Shown: piece after piece, positions 9,639 to 25,111 of the stretch
How the letters are laid out: every line of letters starts with the position of its first letter
Position numbering within the stretch: position 1 is the stretch's first letter
From: a virus
DNA: 28,843 bases
Virus record (IMG/VR): IMGVR_UViG_3300020185_000195
Location: 1 to 28,843 of that record
Reading direction: 5' to 3' (one strand)
Made by a program: the position numbers and the translations under genes
Notes under the pieces: generated by a model
The model's database searches: none
What the model was told of the DNA's origin: nothing
What the model saw: the letters and a program-made list of their open reading frames with translations, nothing else

Positions 9639-10131
9639 AGTTAAAGTAAATAAAAGACCAGTAGGCAGACCCGCAAGAACATTAGATCCAATGATTAACT
9701 GGATGGTAGATGTGGGGGAATGGATGATTGACTACTTACAAAAGAATAATAGGATAGCCTCCGGTAAGTCTATAAACTCTTTTGAGGTCACTGCTATACA
9801 AAACCCTCAATTCGTAGAATTAAAATCGGCAGAGTCGGTTAAATGGGCTTTGCAAGGGAGAAAGGCGGGACGGTTTCCAAACGTAGGAAGGTTGAGGCAG
9901 TGGGTTAGGGATAAGATAGGAGAAACGAATGTAAAAACGATTAACCGAATAGCGTATTTAGTAGGTCGTAAGATAGCACTAAGCGGCACGAATGAGCCAA
10001 AGCTAAGGATTCAAAACATACAATTAGTCATTAAGCAAAAAGGAATAAAACACACTAAAAAGTTAGCGGATAACTTAGCGGAGGATATAGCAGCAGCAAC
10101 TTTACAGGGATTTAAAAGAATAAATAAATGA
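9631..10131 (+). CDS. Tail completion/HK97 gp10-like protein (tentative)
   Basis: The 166-aa basic protein starts at a GTG that overlaps the upstream stop; there is no nearer ATG in frame. The central block SVKWALQGRKAGRFPNVGRL followed by RQWVRDKIGE resembles the G-R-x-P-G-x-x-P...W-I/V pattern of Bacteroidetes phage head-tail joining proteins, and the whole protein could be a gp10-like neck component. The N-terminus is unusually rich in Lys/Arg (KVKVNKRPVGRPAR). The role is inferred from position and this weak motif. Confidence 0.5.
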   Translation: MAKVKVNKRPVGRPARTLDPMINWMVDVGEWMIDYLQKNNRIASGKSINSFEVTAIQNPQFVELKSAESVKWALQGRKAGRFPNVGRLRQWVRDKIGETNVKTINRIAYLVGRKIALSGTNEPKLRIQNIQLVIKQKGIKHTKKLADNLAEDIAAATLQGFKRINK

Positions 10132-11726
10132 GTTTAACACTAGAAAAAACACCAATAAAAACAGTAGCAGGGATAGAGTCCAATGTAGTAGCTATCAATT
10201 CACAAGTGCCGTTCACTTTTAAGAGAGTAGATGTATCGGGTATAAGTGTCGTTCAAAACTCTACTTTTATAGAAGTGATAGTACCTAAAACTTTTTTCAT
10301 TAACCCTCCAATTGAAAATCAAATTTTTTACTTAGACTTTACAGATACTTACATTAGTGGAGTCTATGTTGTTAGTGAGGTGATAACAGATGCTGTATTT
10401 TATAGGCTCGTATTTAATACTATTATTTACACAGCAGACACAACTTGTGACTTAAACGACTTGGAAGGTAGGAAGAATTACTCTGTAATTGTTAACCCTA
10501 TTGACGAGGTCACAGGGCTTCCATTAATTCCTTCACCTTTGAGATATAAGCCAAAACAAGACGGTTCTTTATTTATAGATTTAAGTGGGTTAGCTTTTGG
10601 ATATAATTTACCAAATGATGAGTTGCTTTTTAGATTGTCATGGTTAGAAAACTATACTTCTTTTACTGGTGATAGTGGCACGACTGAGTTAATGATAGGG
10701 CTGCAAGCAAAAAGACAGATTGGCAATGTGGGTGGCTCTAATATGTGGGAACGGTTACCAAATGAGCTAAAAACAGGAGATATAACAGAAGTTCTACAAG
10801 ATGGAACGGAAAACAAACTTTTTATTTATGGCGACTTTACACAGTTTAATATTAATGACTATGTAAAAGTTAAGACAAATAAATATAATTTCATTTCTCA
10901 AATAACTGATTTGGGGGGCTTAAATGAGTGGGCTAAATTTGATATCCCTTTTATGGGACAAAGTAGAGCGGGGTCGGGTTCTATAATTGGAAAGGCTTGC
11001 AGTGTTGGAGGTGGTTTTTTAACTGACTTTGACAGTCCGTATGTATGGATGCACTATAAAAGAAGTATAGCGTGGGTTTTAGATTCAAACCTTAATACTA
11101 GAACTGGGAGCAGTCAACTATCTTTAAAGGTAGTGGGAAAGGATGCTTTCGGGATCCCTGTTTATACTGAAAATACTACTCCTGTAACCTCTTTAGGCAT
11201 ACACACTTATCAATTGCCTTTAAATGTATTAGCAGACACTTTCGAGGTTCAACTTCTGGGCGGTGTTGGTGGTGCTATCCCAATGGGAGAAAAGAAAATA
11301 TTCAAACAGTTGCACGCCTGTAGAAACTCTTTCAATTTAGAATGGGATAATAGAAACGGAGAACAAGAACAACACGTATTTAGTGTTAACCAAATAATAG
11401 GAGAAAAAACAGATAAGGGGCTACTATATAACCCCCCAATAGTACAGGATTTAGAAGTCGTTGAAATAGCTATAGAAAGAATACCTTTAGACTCTACGCA
11501 GACAATAACATTGAGTGCAGAAAAGGTGAGTAAAAACTTTTTAAATCAATTAAACACAATTAAAAAGAGTGAGGTTATTTCATTATATTTGAATGGTGAA
11601 GGTACTAGTAAGGTTCGTGTTGTTGTTGTTGATACGTTTTCAAGTAGCTACGGCACGGATGAGGGGCTTTATGACTTTACAGTTAAAATACAACTACCTC
11701 CAAACTTTGAGATAGACAACGCATGA
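10128..11726 (+). CDS. Large tail/baseplate structural protein
   Basis: The 532-aa protein is beta-rich throughout, without signal peptide, membrane segment or enzyme motif. Repeating sheet-like stretches (FTFKRVDVSGISVVQNSTFI, ELLFRLSWLENYTSF, STQTITLSAEKVSKNF) indicate a structural tail subunit, possibly of distal-tail type. It overlaps the preceding gene (ATGAG) and the following tail-tip gene by four bases each, so the three are coupled. Its position upstream of the tape measure is unusual for a distal tail protein. Confidence 0.6.
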   Translation: MSLTLEKTPIKTVAGIESNVVAINSQVPFTFKRVDVSGISVVQNSTFIEVIVPKTFFINPPIENQIFYLDFTDTYISGVYVVSEVITDAVFYRLVFNTIIYTADTTCDLNDLEGRKNYSVIVNPIDEVTGLPLIPSPLRYKPKQDGSLFIDLSGLAFGYNLPNDELLFRLSWLENYTSFTGDSGTTELMIGLQAKRQIGNVGGSNMWERLPNELKTGDITEVLQDGTENKLFIYGDFTQFNINDYVKVKTNKYNFISQITDLGGLNEWAKFDIPFMGQSRAGSGSIIGKACSVGGGFLTDFDSPYVWMHYKRSIAWVLDSNLNTRTGSSQLSLKVVGKDAFGIPVYTENTTPVTSLGIHTYQLPLNVLADTFEVQLLGGVGGAIPMGEKKIFKQLHACRNSFNLEWDNRNGEQEQHVFSVNQIIGEKTDKGLLYNPPIVQDLEVVEIAIERIPLDSTQTITLSAEKVSKNFLNQLNTIKKSEVISLYLNGEGTSKVRVVVVDTFSSSYGTDEGLYDFTVKIQLPPNFEIDNA

Positions 11727-14700
11727 GCAAACTGGAAATAAGACTAGCTAACGGTTCTTTGGATTTGAACCCAGACTCTCAGAGTAAATTTTATATTACA
11801 AAGCAAATACATGACCTTAGAGACTTGGAAACTAGAAACGCCTCGTTCACTAAGTCAATAGTAATTCCACGTTCTTATAATAATGTTTTTTTATTAGGCT
11901 TGGAACTTGTGGAGTTTGGCAGAGATTCAACAGATAGCTACAAATTTGTTGATTGTCAAGTGTTATTGGCTTCGTATCCTGTTTTAAGCGAAGGGAAACT
12001 AATTGTTACCTCTCAAAACGATACGGATAAAACAATCACGATAAACATATTAGGGGGAACGGTTACGTTATTTGAAGAGTTAAGCGAGAACGGTCTCGGT
12101 GACCTTCCTTTGGTTAATTATTCTTTTGATTGGAACTTAGGAAATATTTCTAATTATGTAGATACAACGGATGGTCTTTTATTTGCAGATAGTTCTTGGG
12201 GGGGGAATAATGCTTATGCAATAGCAGTAGACAAAGGACTAAGCCCAAATGTAAACTTTGAAGATCCAGAGGTGAATTATAATGGTGCCTGGTTTTATGT
12301 AAAAACTTTAATGAGTTTAATATTTGATTCATTAAAAAATGTAACTATTGACAACACCGCTTTAGAGTCTTTGGAAGATTATAATAGCATGGTTGTAATG
12401 ATTCCCACAACTCAATTGCTAGATAATTTTACGGCTTTAGAAGGTATTGAAGGAGTAAGGTCAGCATTACCAAACACAGAAACAACGCCCTTGATAAGTG
12501 TTGGGGAATCTTTAAACTTAAACTTTCCAGAAGAGTACGCAGATAGCCCAACAGGCTTTTGGAATAGTGGAGGACTATATCCTTACAGATATGAGGTGAC
12601 AACTTCTGCGTATTACAATATTGATATTAATATTAACTTTTTTATGAGTCCCCCTTCGTCGTCTTTATCGGACTTACAACTCGTTGCGGGTACTGATTTT
12701 GGGGGGACGGTTTTATTCGATATACCAGTGGGGTTCTCTTCTCAAAATAAAACTTATAAAAAGTCTGTTTACTTAAATGCGGGTGAGTCAATAAGATTAG
12801 TTTTCGTTCCTTTTACTGGTGATCCTTTAAAGTTGGTTTATAATGGAGATTTTAATGTTTCGTCTTCAATTACTATTGATTCGGATTTTGTTAATTTATC
12901 TGAATGGATGCCCGATATATCACAAAAGAATTTTGTTAAGGAGGTCTTTAAACTTTTCAATGCCATACCTACTTTTAAGGATGGTTTAACAACTATAGAT
13001 TTATGGGATAGCATAACTGAAAGAGAGCAGGAGGACTTGACTCAGTATTTAGATTCTAGCAGAGATATAATAAAGCAAGGATACTTAAATTCCTACGCTC
13101 AAAATAATACTTTTAAATTCTCAGTTGATGAAGATGTAGAAAGAGAGGGGACAGAGTTCGTATTCCCAATGAAGAATAATATATTACCTTTAGATAAAGA
13201 TAAAATAAGCTCTTCATTTTCTCCATCAGATCAATCTGTAGAGGATCAGCTTTCAATATCTACGCCTTTAATGCCGTTTGACTACGAAAAGGTTACTAAT
13301 AATAATTTGAATGTAACCTCTGGAACTGACACCTATTCTACAGTTGATTCTAACGGTTTAAAAGTTGGCGATTTAATCTTTGCGGCTAATAGTGCAGGGA
13401 CTGGATTCCAACCTAGAAGAAGAGTAAAGCAAGTAATAGACAATAAGACGGGGACAGTCGATATAAATTGGAGCGAAAGTTCTAACGATATCTGGGATTT
13501 TGTACACTACTACAAAGAAGAAATTGGGCTACGTTTCGGAAAAGTTTTTCAAAAAGGAAGTACACGGATTAGAGACGGAGGGGCAAACATTCTAGTTCCT
13601 TCAATGAAGGGTGTTGTTTTTCCAGATGCTTACACGTGGGAAAACTTGGCAGGGTCGTACTATACTAATTTAGTATCTATGTTAGAAAAGCCTGTAACAG
13701 AGAGAATGTTTTTCAGGTTGCCCCCTACTGTATTCAACGAGCTAGATTTATTGAAGCCTGTATATGTAAAAGATAGGGCTTATTATATCAATAAGATTGA
13801 GCAATATAATTTTAGCGGGTTTTGTAGAATGGAACTACTTGAAATAAAAGTAAATGAGGGTATTATTGGAGTACCTTATTATATAGCAACTCCAAACCCT
13901 TTAATTTTTGGTAATGTAGAACCTAGTACTACGACAACAAAAAAAGCTACTATACTAAACACGGGACTAGGGGAAATAAGTTTTAATATTAACCCCATTA
14001 CAGGTGCTGACTCTTCTTATTTTAGTTTTGTAGGGTTGCCATCAAACCCTATTAATTTAGTGGGAGGTGGGGCTTTGGAGGTAGAGATTGAATTTATTTC
14101 AGATACCTCCTTTGGAGAAAAGCAAGCTGAATTTAATATTGAAGGGATAACAGAAGGGTTATTTGATATTGATGTGAAGATCGATGCTTTCATTAATTCA
14201 CAAGCAGACTACACGGTTACTCCTTTAGACATCATAGTTACACCTACTCCGAGTGGTTTTGAAACGGTAGCATCTACAGTTATTGAAAACGTAGGGATAG
14301 GGTCAATTGATTTTGATTTGGGCGATATCATAGGAAGTTCAGAGATTGAATTTACTTTAGGGACACAAAGAACGTTTACTCTTTTAGAAGGTCAACAAAT
14401 CACTGCAAGCGTTAAGCATATTAGCGCATTACCAATAGGATTAAAACAAGCTACCTTCTTAGTGGAAACTATAACGCCAGATATATTTAATAAAACGGTT
14501 GATATATTTGCTAGAACTATAGACAACCCCGCTACTTATACAGTGAGTTTAAACCCTATGGCTTTTGGAAGTAAAAGTAATAATGCGCCAGCCTCTACAC
14601 TTCAAACTATAATTCAAAACACAGGGACTGAAACTATAAATTTCACACTAACTACATTCACAGGAGCAAACGCAAATGAATTTGACTACGCAGTTGGTCA

Positions 14701-14860
14701 ACCTATCGCATTTAGTGTAGATCCAAATCAACAACAATCAATTAACGTAGTGTGGGACACGGCAAACCCTAAGACATTTAAACAAGCTTTCTTTACAATA
14801 GAAGCAAACAACGCTTTTGCAAGTAATACAATAGTAGAAGTAAACGGCACAACAACTTAA
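11723..14860 (+). CDS. Tail-tip/baseplate protein with C-terminal Ig-like (ASH-type) repeats
   Basis: The 1045-aa protein starts with a segment typical of Bacteroidetes siphovirus tail-tip proteins (HDLRDLETRNASFTKSIVIP). The middle is a beta-rich region with SEWMPDISQKNFVKEVFKLF, a pattern common in these baseplate hubs. From about residue 720 there are three tandem repeats of about 100 aa, starting near YYIATPNPLIFG, YTVTPLDIIVT and YTVSLNPMAFG. Each has an I-x-N-x-G-x-x-x-I-x-F core, as in ASH/choice-of-anchor-D Ig-like folds. These probably form surface-exposed adhesion or spacer modules. The gene is intact and includes an in-frame G8 tract at 12198-12205. Confidence 0.75.
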   Translation: MSKLEIRLANGSLDLNPDSQSKFYITKQIHDLRDLETRNASFTKSIVIPRSYNNVFLLGLELVEFGRDSTDSYKFVDCQVLLASYPVLSEGKLIVTSQNDTDKTITINILGGTVTLFEELSENGLGDLPLVNYSFDWNLGNISNYVDTTDGLLFADSSWGGNNAYAIAVDKGLSPNVNFEDPEVNYNGAWFYVKTLMSLIFDSLKNVTIDNTALESLEDYNSMVVMIPTTQLLDNFTALEGIEGVRSALPNTETTPLISVGESLNLNFPEEYADSPTGFWNSGGLYPYRYEVTTSAYYNIDININFFMSPPSSSLSDLQLVAGTDFGGTVLFDIPVGFSSQNKTYKKSVYLNAGESIRLVFVPFTGDPLKLVYNGDFNVSSSITIDSDFVNLSEWMPDISQKNFVKEVFKLFNAIPTFKDGLTTIDLWDSITEREQEDLTQYLDSSRDIIKQGYLNSYAQNNTFKFSVDEDVEREGTEFVFPMKNNILPLDKDKISSSFSPSDQSVEDQLSISTPLMPFDYEKVTNNNLNVTSGTDTYSTVDSNGLKVGDLIFAANSAGTGFQPRRRVKQVIDNKTGTVDINWSESSNDIWDFVHYYKEEIGLRFGKVFQKGSTRIRDGGANILVPSMKGVVFPDAYTWENLAGSYYTNLVSMLEKPVTERMFFRLPPTVFNELDLLKPVYVKDRAYYINKIEQYNFSGFCRMELLEIKVNEGIIGVPYYIATPNPLIFGNVEPSTTTTKKATILNTGLGEISFNINPITGADSSYFSFVGLPSNPINLVGGGALEVEIEFISDTSFGEKQAEFNIEGITEGLFDIDVKIDAFINSQADYTVTPLDIIVTPTPSGFETVASTVIENVGIGSIDFDLGDIIGSSEIEFTLGTQRTFTLLEGQQITASVKHISALPIGLKQATFLVETITPDIFNKTVDIFARTIDNPATYTVSLNPMAFGSKSNNAPASTLQTIIQNTGTETINFTLTTFTGANANEFDYAVGQPIAFSVDPNQQQSINVVWDTANPKTFKQAFFTIEANNAFASNTIVEVNGTTT

Positions 14861-23156: not shown

Positions 23157-23450
23157 ATGATATATTTATTAGTACACGACATGAGCGCAGTTTTAAACGA
23201 TGATAACTGCGTTTACTTAGGCTTAGAGGTGGGTTCTACTTTTCAAGATATGAGAGATACCGCCGAGCAAATGGATGATCGGGGCAGTGGTTACGATAGG
23301 ACAAAAGACAGTAAAACAATATGGATTGCACCATACAAAAACGATCCAAATTTAATATTCAATCCAAAGCCTTTAATATATGAAGTTTTAACTTTGGAAG
23401 AATTTAATAATTACGGTTTTGATGTGGAAGAAGTAGAGCCTAATGTATAA
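23157..23450 (+). CDS. Hypothetical 97-aa protein
   Basis: A soluble acidic protein with no recognised domain. The sequence alternates short beta segments (MIYLLVHDMSAVLNDDNCVY) with polar loops and ends in a beta strand/acidic tail (EEFNNYGFDVEEVEPNV). It overlaps the endolysin gene by eight bases, so it is probably co-translated with it. Confidence 0.5.
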   Translation: MIYLLVHDMSAVLNDDNCVYLGLEVGSTFQDMRDTAEQMDDRGSGYDRTKDSKTIWIAPYKNDPNLIFNPKPLIYEVLTLEEFNNYGFDVEEVEPNV

Positions 23451-23838
23451 ATTAAGCAAAAGAAGTCTAGAACGTATTGAAGGGATCGAGCCTATTTTAA
23501 TAGATATTCTTAAGGAAGGAATAAAAGACTGCCCTATTGATTTTGGGATACCTAAAGACGGCGGATTTAGAACAACTGAAAGACAAGAATATCTTTATTC
23601 CATTGGGCGTACTAGAGAGCTTTCAAGGGGCGTTGTTACTTGGACTAAGCAAAGTTACCACATGAGCGGAAAAGCCTTTGACGTGTACGCATACGTAGGA
23701 AATAAAGCAAGTTGGAAACAAGAGCATTTACAAGTAATAGCGGAACACCTAAAAAAAGTGGCATGGGATAAATTTTGTATTCGTTTAAAGTGGGGGTTTG
23801 ATATGTGGGGCAAAGATTCCGCACATTTTCAATTCTAA
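23443..23838 (+). CDS. Endolysin, M15-family peptidase
   Basis: The 131-aa protein contains the zinc-peptidase signature of the M15/VanY-type L-alanyl-D-glutamate or D-Ala-D-Ala peptidases. SYHMSGKAFDV supplies His73 and Asp80 in S-x-H-x-x-G-x-A-x-D, and WGFDMWGKDSAHFQF supplies the third ligand His128. The arginine-containing GGFRTTERQEYL (40-51) is also typical. It cuts peptidoglycan peptides at lysis. No signal peptide is seen, so release would depend on the holin-like proteins downstream. Confidence 0.88.
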   Translation: MYKLSKRSLERIEGIEPILIDILKEGIKDCPIDFGIPKDGGFRTTERQEYLYSIGRTRELSRGVVTWTKQSYHMSGKAFDVYAYVGNKASWKQEHLQVIAEHLKKVAWDKFCIRLKWGFDMWGKDSAHFQF

Positions 23839-23840
23839 AT

Positions 23841-23930
23841 ATGTTTTATGTAATATTTGGCTCAATAGTTGACTTATTTAAAAGAGTATTATTTGCCTTT
23901 TATCGAATAATAAAAGAAACTTTTACATAA
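23841..23930 (+). CDS. 29-aa hydrophobic peptide in the lysis region
   Basis: A tiny ORF two bases after the endolysin stop, encoding MFYVIFGSIVDLFKRVLFAF plus a polar end. It is hydrophobic and amphipathic and could be a small membrane lysis peptide, but its length makes coding uncertain. Confidence 0.3.
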   Translation: MFYVIFGSIVDLFKRVLFAFYRIIKETFT

Positions 23931-23946
23931 TTAATTACTTTAAACC

Positions 23947-24342
23947 ATGCCAAAAAACTACCTTAAACACATAGAAAGCCTATCTAACGAAGTAGGTGAA
24001 CTCCTAAAATTTAAAGACTTACTTATAGAAGCCTTAAACTCATCAGCGGAAGGAATAGCATTACTAGATAAAGAAGGGAAGTACATTTGGCTTAATAAAG
24101 CTCATGCTGAAATATTTGGTTATTCTCATCATGAGTTGGTTGGTAAAAGTTGGGAAATATTGTATAAAAAAAATGACTTAGCTTATTTCTACGAAAATGC
24201 GTTTCCTAAATTAGAAAAAGAAGGTCACTGGAACGGAAAAGTCCAAGGAATACACAAAGATAATACCACAATTATAAATGAAAGCGTATATTTAACATCT
24301 TTAAAAGACGGTGGATTAATTTGCACGTGTATAAAGATTTAA
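23947..24342 (+). CDS. Stand-alone PAS-domain protein
   Basis: The 131-aa protein is almost entirely one PAS fold. An N-terminal helix is followed by the PAS core SSAEGIALLDKEGKYIWLNK, then AHAEIFGYSHHELVGKSWEI. The C-terminal strands (WNGKVQGIHKDNTTIINESV, YLTSLKDGGLICTCIKI) complete the typical PAS/PAC pattern. PAS domains sense redox, light, oxygen or small ligands, or mediate dimerisation. No kinase, cyclase or DNA-binding output domain is attached. It sits between endolysin and holin genes, which is unusual for a phage, and its role there is unknown. Confidence 0.85.
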   Translation: MPKNYLKHIESLSNEVGELLKFKDLLIEALNSSAEGIALLDKEGKYIWLNKAHAEIFGYSHHELVGKSWEILYKKNDLAYFYENAFPKLEKEGHWNGKVQGIHKDNTTIINESVYLTSLKDGGLICTCIKI

Positions 24343-24346
24343 TTAA

Positions 24347-24556
24347 ATGAGTGAGGATTGGAACGTATACAGTAAGATGGTATTGCACGAGCTTGAAAGG
24401 TTGAACGTAGGAGTCGAAAAGCTAGAAGAGGGGCAAAAGCAAATAGAAAAGGACATAATTAAATTGCAAGCAAAGGCGACTGTTTGGGGTTCTGTTGGTG
24501 GTATTGTAGCCACTTTAATAACGAGTTTAGTAGTTCACTTTTTAACAAGTAAATAA
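24347..24556 (+). CDS. Holin-like/XhlA-like membrane protein
   Basis: The 69-aa protein has a coiled-coil N-terminal half (KLEEGQKQIEKDIIKLQAKA) followed by one C-terminal membrane helix (VWGSVGGIVATLITSLVVHF). This matches the XhlA/hemolysin-type lysis accessory layout, with a single TM segment and cytoplasmic coiled coil. It overlaps no neighbour but is four bases from the PAS gene and one base from the next holin-like gene. It is likely to act with endolysin. Confidence 0.7.
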   Translation: MSEDWNVYSKMVLHELERLNVGVEKLEEGQKQIEKDIIKLQAKATVWGSVGGIVATLITSLVVHFLTSK

Positions 24557-24557
24557 T

Positions 24558-24926
24558 ATGTTTGGTAAAGGATCGGGAAAAGTAGCAAGCGAGGTAGTAG
24601 GTATCGCAGATAAGTTAATAGTTGACAAAGATAAGAAGCAAGAAATAGCAAGCGATATCGTCCAGGCTGAAATAATTAGTGGTTCATCTTTTGTAAGGAA
24701 TGCTAGACCTATGATAATTTACACAGGACTTTTTTTAATTGTCTTTGAGTTTTTCGGGGTACGGTTTTTGTTTTTAAATTTCATAAAAGCCACTGAGTTA
24801 ATGATTGAATCTAGTACACAAATTTTTCAATTCTTTTTAATGTCATGGAGCGGAGTATCTTCCGTTTATGTGGGTGGGCGTACTTATGAGAAGGCTAAAA
24901 GTAGAATATTTAGAAAGCGTAATTAA
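24558..24926 (+). CDS. Holin-like membrane protein
   Basis: The 122-aa protein starts with a polar helical segment (GSGKVASEVVGIADKLIVDK) and has two or three membrane segments: RPMIIYTGLFLIVFEFFGV, RFLFLNFIKA and STQIFQFFLMSWSGVSSVYV, followed by a basic tail (AKSRIFRKRN). This matches three-TM holins of Bacteroidetes and other phages (Holin_3TMs-like). It would form the membrane lesion that lets the M15 endolysin reach the wall. Confidence 0.75.
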   Translation: MFGKGSGKVASEVVGIADKLIVDKDKKQEIASDIVQAEIISGSSFVRNARPMIIYTGLFLIVFEFFGVRFLFLNFIKATELMIESSTQIFQFFLMSWSGVSSVYVGGRTYEKAKSRIFRKRN

Positions 24927-25071
24927 TAAAATAACAATAAAAACATTAAACAATACTCTTTATGTTCTTATCGTTATTTTGTTTTTGTGTTATTCTTTAA
25001 GGGTTTATAATTTTATTGATGATTTAAGGGTTTTTGTTTACTTAGCTTTAATATATTATAACATAGCATAA
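24868..25071 (+). CDS. Possible overlapping small membrane protein
   Basis: An ORF in another frame overlapping the holin-like gene by 59 bases. Its C-terminal half is strongly hydrophobic (TLYVLIVILFLCYSLRVYNF, FVYLALIYYNIA). A downstream in-frame ATG at 24886 would shorten the overlap. It could be a real small lysis-accessory protein or a chance ORF in AT-rich DNA. I keep it at low confidence because nothing else fills this space. Confidence 0.3.
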   Translation: MWVGVLMRRLKVEYLESVINKITIKTLNNTLYVLIVILFLCYSLRVYNFIDDLRVFVYLALIYYNIA

Positions 25072-25111
25072 AGCGAAACCCTATCGCTTAACGCTTTCGT
25101 TTATGCGGTTG
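25061..25111. repeat. Long imperfect palindrome between convergent operons
   Basis: GCATAAA-G-CGAAA (25066-25078) pairs with TTTCGTTTATGC (25095-25106), giving 12 bp with one bulge. Outside it ATAACA pairs with TGTTAT after short unpaired spacers. Plus-strand and minus-strand operons meet here. It may be a bidirectional terminator, although no T-run follows on either strand, or an attC-like hairpin. Nothing else is seen between 25072 and 25123. Confidence 0.65.

Follow-up and report, generated by a model that had tools for sequence, protein, structure and literature searches.

A family of stand-alone PAS proteins encoded beside lysis genes in phages

Gene content of the lysis cassette

The window analysed here is an entire 28,843-nucleotide stretch of viral DNA (IMG/VR record IMGVR_UViG_3300020185_000195). 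This 28.8-kb record has no terminal repeats and carries genes for a helicase, NinB- and Erf-like recombination proteins, a terminase, a tape measure, a head protease and a portal; a 1045-aa open reading frame (11723-14860, + strand) with no PHROG match at E 0.1 lies between terminase and tape measure and encodes a large virion-region protein. Among isolates, the portal has relatives in phages infecting Bacteroides, Parabacteroides, Phocaeicola, Tenacibaculum and Elizabethkingia, and no Shine-Dalgarno-like GGAGG precedes any of the inspected gene starts, so that the host is probably a member of the Bacteroidota.

The lysis cassette occupies the + strand and opens with a 131-aa endolysin of the M15/VanY type (L-Ala-D-Glu peptidase-like; 23443-23838), which matches the endolysin family phrog_465 at 2.4e-32 and contains the HxxGxAxD and terminal AHF motifs; its Pfam matches, VanY at 8.5e-4 and M15_4 at 1.9e-3, both lie below the Pfam cut-off. 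The protein is matched by 503 isolate phages, several of which have it annotated as L-alanyl-D-glutamate peptidase. Downstream of the endolysin follow the gene for a stand-alone PAS protein of 131 aa (23947-24342), that for a 69-aa XhlA-like protein with an N-terminal cytosolic coiled coil and a C-terminal transmembrane segment at residues 45-63, as read from hydropathy (24347-24556), and that for a 122-aa holin of the GTA_holin_3TM family (24558-24926; PF11351 at 5.8e-9, 37 bits against a cut-off of 24.8), which also matches the holin family phrog_3427 at 5.8e-11 and has a 56% identical relative on viral contig L031. A sequence-only reading of the locus had placed the PAS gene between an endolysin and two holin-like genes in a single operon. 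The position within a lysis cassette is borne out, with an M15 endolysin upstream and two membrane-protein genes downstream, and the second of these is a recognizable holin, whereas the first encodes an XhlA-like coiled-coil and transmembrane protein not recognizable as one. The genes share one strand and are tightly spaced except for a 108-bp gap between endolysin and PAS gene; strand and spacing are the grounds on which we infer one operon.

Several smaller features accompany these genes. Within the 108-bp gap, an ATG-initiated open frame at 23841-23930 (+ strand) would encode a hydrophobic or amphipathic peptide of 29 aa, MFYVIFGSIVDLFKRVLFAFYRIIKETFT, whose hydropathy of 1.61 over 19 residues is at the transmembrane threshold; it may be noise, or else a lysis factor of small size that acts in the membrane. 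A 67-aa open reading frame with a hydrophobic segment and no confident family (24868-25071, + strand) overlaps the 3' end of the holin gene, and an imperfect hairpin at 25065-25095, possibly a bidirectional terminator, marks the point where the + strand lysis genes meet a convergent block on the - strand (25124 onward). Around the PAS locus, scans for Rfam families, tRNAs, terminators and promoters yielded nothing decisive.

Fold and pocket of the PAS protein

The protein encoded at 23947-24342 (+ strand, ATG start) consists of an N-terminal helix (residues 3-31) and a PAS core (about residues 29-131). It exceeds the curated cut-offs of five Pfam families, namely PAS_9 (PF13426; 8.6e-10, 39.3 bits against 27), PAS (PF00989; 6.4e-8, 33 bits against 22.6), PAS_8, PAS_4 and PAS_3, and is further matched by TIGR00229 sensory_box (7e-11, 42.3 bits against 22.9). 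An AlphaFold2 model built from nine phage homologues has a mean pLDDT of 93.8 and comprises the long N-terminal helix followed by a complete PAS fold, with the five-stranded sheet and helices C-F in place and the C-terminus formed by the last strand; a model from the single sequence was poor (pLDDT 45) and was set aside. The nearest solved structures are likewise PAS domains (3lyx, Z 16.6, rmsd 1.7 over 112 residues; NifL 2gj3, Z 15.5), and the best match in a viral fold library is A0A345MNJ9, a protein of 182 aa (TM 0.80).

Both Pfam and the model place the core up to the C-terminus of the 131-aa chain and reveal no output domain behind it: the C-terminal kinase of a sensor histidine kinase is missing, as are a VqmA-type HTH DNA-binding domain and any cyclase, GGDEF or EAL module. 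The description of the gene as encoding a nearly pure PAS domain without output therefore stands on Pfam, TIGR00229, the AlphaFold2 model and the PDB matches alike. PADLOC assigned no defence match to the PAS gene, and to its neighbours weak coiled-coil matches only.

The sequence-only reading had also proposed redox among the signals that such a module might sense, which the pocket residues do not establish. The mark of a LOV photoreceptor, the reactive Cys of a GxNCRFLQ motif, is absent: the corresponding stretch in the window reads GKSWEILY, and none of the nine aligned phage members has a Cys there. Heme-binding PAS domains such as FixL and DosP carry an axial His in helix F; the model's helix at residues 75-92 has no such His, a result that speaks to the helix F site and leaves other heme sites conceivable. 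FAD-binding PAS domains of the NifL/Aer type have a helix F Trp close to the flavin; at this position the window protein departs from them as well, with Phe86 aligned to the NifL FAD-site Trp and Phe invariant across the phage family. Residues Y46, N50, H53, W69, Y73, F86, W95 and C126 are invariant in that family, and these sensory-subfamily core residues are largely common to the cellular PAS relatives; since they have been kept, binding of a small ligand in the pocket is plausible.

PAS domains commonly dimerise, and the family could instead provide a non-sensing, structural dimerisation or scaffold domain for a complex of the XhlA-like protein and the holin, with its pocket empty. Such a function would sit well with the lack of heme, LOV and NifL-type FAD signatures, with the long N-terminal helix modelled at high confidence, and with the precedent of VqmA, whose dimerisation requires its PAS domain (PMC8284805). 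The invariant sensory core residues nevertheless exceed the needs of a bare scaffold, and the occurrence of two PAS subfamilies in the same genomic slot, described below, suggests an interchangeable input domain; we consider a purely structural role unlikely, if still deserving of attention.

A phage-specific PAS family

Searches with the window PAS as a single sequence gave no match among viral contigs or GTDB species genomes, and no relative was found in 50,697 isolate phage records at the sensitivity used. A reading of the gene as unique to the window phage was dropped when alignment-based profile searches uncovered a family. A first profile, in which the window PAS was aligned with four plasmid-borne PAS domains, retrieved eight viral contigs, and a second, built from the resulting nine phage proteins, added one further contig (L073). 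The nine contigs encode PAS proteins 43-49% identical to that of the window over its length; all ten are stand-alone proteins of 131-138 aa, and the PAS is the single one of its record in 8/8 records. In a tree with 17 cellular PAS domains the ten phage proteins, the window PAS among them, form one clade with 96/93 support, and dN/dS values of 0.04-0.12 between close pairs reveal strong purifying selection. The phage PAS proteins are thus a real, selected and phage-specific family. The lineages in which such genes pair with an XhlA-like gene are few: one large group, L064 with L073, the window, and the pair of PAS_3-type genes discussed further on.

The finding of PAS genes in the same kind of position elsewhere, which the sequence-only reading had proposed to look for, speaks against the recent random acquisition that it had named as its own possible undoing, as relatives stand in a lysis setting on nine other viral contigs. 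It bears equally on the prospect that the gene is an artefact, whether a chance PAS match, a fragment of a kinase pseudogene or host contamination. The protein does end at the point where a kinase linker would begin, as a fragment might, and it occurs as a single copy in the record; five Pfam families over their cut-offs, a confident model, purifying selection, membership of one phage clade and phage genes on both flanks tell against this, and ten conserved full-length homologues refute it, leaving an artefact with a negligible probability.

The best cellular relatives are PAS domains within multi-PAS kinase-type proteins from Bacteroidota MAGs (36-46% identity), with others in cyanobacteria and haloarchaea. 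Close relatives are present in 2/148 sampled Bacteroidota genomes at E 1e-22, a rarity that led us to reject the idea that the phage protein imitates a single, widespread PAS of host kinases.

A separate set of candidates came from the viral fold library. The Cellulophaga phage proteins phi18:3 gp090 and phi19:1 gp108 gave a probability of 0.1% in a profile comparison with the phage PAS and no Pfam match, and were not counted as relatives. Genes of the gp090 family adjoin endolysins or stand two genes away from them, and members of this Cellulophaga family (phi18:3 gp090, phi38:2 gp11, Ingeline_1 gp36), transmembrane proteins with a weak PAS-like fold match, are encoded at L177:1102-1617, L182:3411-4046 and L181:3435-4037, among or close to the lysis genes.

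The XhlA-like partner gene

On 9/9 PAS contigs an XhlA-like gene lies immediately upstream of the PAS gene, separated by a 1-bp gap or joined by a 4-bp overlap. It is important to note that these contigs were retrieved by their PAS alone and that adjacency to an XhlA-like gene was not selected for. The XhlA-like proteins of the nine contigs are 106-117 aa long; all begin with a coil, and most end in a clear transmembrane segment. Peptidoglycan-hydrolase or candidate lysis genes are found near the pair on all nine, the hydrolases being Amidase_2 (L061, L065, L066), Amidase_3 (L064) and an M15 endolysin of phrog_894 (L060, L073). The flanks themselves vary: the pair is preceded by Amidase_2 on L061 and L066, by Amidase_2 and a small transmembrane gene on L065 and by an unknown gene on L060 and L063, and is followed by spanin-like, small-transmembrane, M15 (phrog_894) or DUF5675 genes. 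The surrounding genes have been exchanged and the pair itself has stayed.

In the window the order is reversed, with the PAS gene before the XhlA-like gene, and the XhlA-like protein is shorter than other members. Against a profile of 59 relatives the protein encoded at 24347-24556 scores 23.3 bits, the best of 2000 shuffles reaching 12.4; the match covers its first 40 residues, and it lacks the WSxxQMKE region found at the centre of the others. It belongs to no Pfam family at E 0.1, XhlA included, and its phrog_1193 hemolysin match is no better than 0.0041.

A scan for the XhlA-like family yielded 80 loci, in eight of which a window-type PAS follows; on L090 the sequence ends before the PAS slot. 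About 70 of the 80 have no window-type PAS, and many of them adjoin virion genes in place of recognised lysis genes. The XhlA-like protein thus works without the PAS, which is an optional part, and its N-terminal motif is the same in either case, so that no PAS-docking motif is visible. A role of the XhlA-like protein itself in lysis is putative. The wider family, with L094:4974-5306 and some 70 loci like it (L093-L164), bears the motif WSxxQMKExKDExYxQK and recurs in many large phage contigs, in most cases next to virion genes and not to recognised lysis genes.

This constant partner also bears on the idea that the free PAS serves as a decoy, pairing with its homologue in a host sensor kinase to block or redirect signalling late in infection, with the lysis position ensuring late expression and nothing more. 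The kinship with PAS domains of multi-PAS kinase-type proteins fits such a function, as does the fact that the phage protein stops where kinase proteins go on with a D-[IV]-T/S-type linker. A decoy would nevertheless have no need of a conserved XhlA-like gene beside it; the figure of 2/148 genomes gives no sign of a target common among hosts, and the phage proteins, an old clade standing apart, were not copied from any single host PAS. Binding to a host PAS kinase, as had been envisaged from the sequence alone, is therefore possible but less favoured, the kept partner being a phage membrane protein, and overall we judge it rather improbable.

A second PAS subfamily and the mobility of the module

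On L152 and L162, which belong to larger-genome phages, a stand-alone PAS_3-type gene directly follows the XhlA-like gene (PAS_3 match of 7.1e-9 in L162, L152 likewise over the cut-off). These two PAS proteins resemble cellular PAS domains more than they do the first phage family, and on L152 a phrog_894 endolysin gene converges on the PAS gene. A scan of 48 XhlA-bearing viral records for PAS_3 and PAS_9 gave one further PAS gene and no more, a kinase-size open reading frame of 552 aa in the L104 record; stand-alone PAS genes in these phages thus adjoin an XhlA-like gene. This 552-aa frame, with a transmembrane region and two PAS domains, lies at about 9845-10519 of that record (G060:C1), a 105-kb viral contig, and may be a phage-borne sensor or host contamination.

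Searches of the PAS-bearing records, several of which are fragments, gave no match to the portal or the terminase of the window, in runs without a positive control, and among the lysis-region stretches compared no protein other than the PAS is strongly shared; together, these results argue for movement of the module from one phage lineage to another. The cassette nearest to that of the window by its holin, on L031, comprises an endolysin, a transmembrane protein and a holin but no PAS, which makes the PAS gene an accessory and not a universal component. Loci related through the portal are uninformative for the PAS slot, as the genes that follow the portal there are not lysis genes.

Such patchiness, with the PAS absent from L031, from 53 viral records related by portal or holin and, at the sensitivity used, from isolate phages, is what one would expect of a passenger (moron) in the late operon that has a function unrelated to lysis and whose insertion lysis modules tolerate. 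Several positions would then be expected, however, whereas the same partner gene recurs every time, the spacing is tight to the base, and a second PAS subfamily occupies the same slot; we regard a mere passenger as distinctly unlikely.

Discussion

Six observations underlie our interpretation: the PAS fold, the lack of an output domain, a clade of ten proteins, purifying selection, adjacency to an XhlA-like gene and a second subfamily in the same slot. A role of the PAS in the lysis module is likely, its location and conservation being observed directly and its regulatory function and ligand extrapolated from them, and the data suggest that in some phages a PAS domain governs the moment at which the host bursts.

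Our preferred reading, to which we give about even credence, is that the family member acts in the lysis module as a cytosolic regulator of a membrane complex of XhlA-like protein and holin. The PAS protein has no transmembrane segment and would therefore be cytosolic, probably as a dimer formed via its N-terminal helix; it may bind the XhlA-like protein at its cytosolic coil, or else the holin at the part that faces the cytosol, and occupancy of its pocket, or a state of the host cytosol or membrane that it reports, could shift the complex between lysis-silent and lysis-permissive forms. Much like T4 RIII or P1 LydB, it would then be a soluble co-antiholin or co-holin, but one whose input is the PAS pocket. 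An extension of this regulatory role, which we offer tentatively and at less than even confidence, is that PAS domains have been captured at least twice as free cytosolic inputs and that, together with the XhlA-like protein, they let the state of the host gate holin lysis post-translationally, as a one-step chemosensory lysis clock. The L031 cassette, the many XhlA-like loci that have no PAS, often beside virion genes, the lack of a visible docking motif, the different gene order and short XhlA-like protein in the window, and the small number of lineages all weigh against the regulator.

The closest precedent for a phage PAS that feeds a signal into lysis, as we propose for the window protein, is VqmA(Phage) of vibriophage VP882, a transcription factor with PAS and HTH parts that belongs to the lysis-lysogeny switch and sets off lysis at the level of transcription (PMC8284805); the window PAS differs from it in having no DNA-binding domain and in being encoded beside endolysin and holin genes. 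With the multi-PAS kinase-type proteins (TIGR00229/PF13426) of Bacteroidota, cyanobacteria and haloarchaea the phage proteins share the fold, core residues and 34-46% identity, but they are stand-alone, end after the last strand and are encoded with lysis genes. T4 RIII and P1 LydB are small soluble cytosolic lysis regulators encoded or acting with a holin, and by analogy the PAS protein may likewise be a small soluble protein acting from the cytosol on a membrane lysis protein; neither is known to be described as a PAS.

For the partner, the closest named cassette is XhlA/XhlB/XlyA of PBSX in Bacillus subtilis, where XhlA is predicted to work together with XhlB (PMC5589764): both have a small protein with a coiled coil and a C-terminal transmembrane segment beside holin and endolysin, but PBSX has no PAS there, and the window XhlA-like protein falls outside Pfam XhlA. 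A free single domain as an accessory of lysis modules also has a counterpart in the stand-alone SH3 protein of Drexlerviridae, widespread but not universal and proposed to bind the cell wall (PMC13164509), unlike the PAS, which is a cytosolic sensor or dimerisation fold. Our search of the open full-text literature turned up no account of a lysis system that includes a PAS, in line with the initial impression that no phage lysis system so arranged had been described.

Phage fitness depends in large part on the time of lysis, and we know of few direct environmental inputs to holins, namely T4-type lysis inhibition by superinfection and the energy state of the membrane. If our reading is correct, a PAS tied to a membrane partner would be a defined, ligand-testable and post-translational input to lysis timing. 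It would furthermore give a candidate role to XhlA-like proteins, which are widespread in phages yet uncharacterised, and would make the XhlA-like and PAS genes a portable two-gene unit to seek in culturable phages. As a separate observation, the unannotated record of the cultured Pseudomonas phage Y10 (H103; OQ572411.1, 25630-25962, - strand) encodes a PAS that is 36% identical to the PAS of L152.
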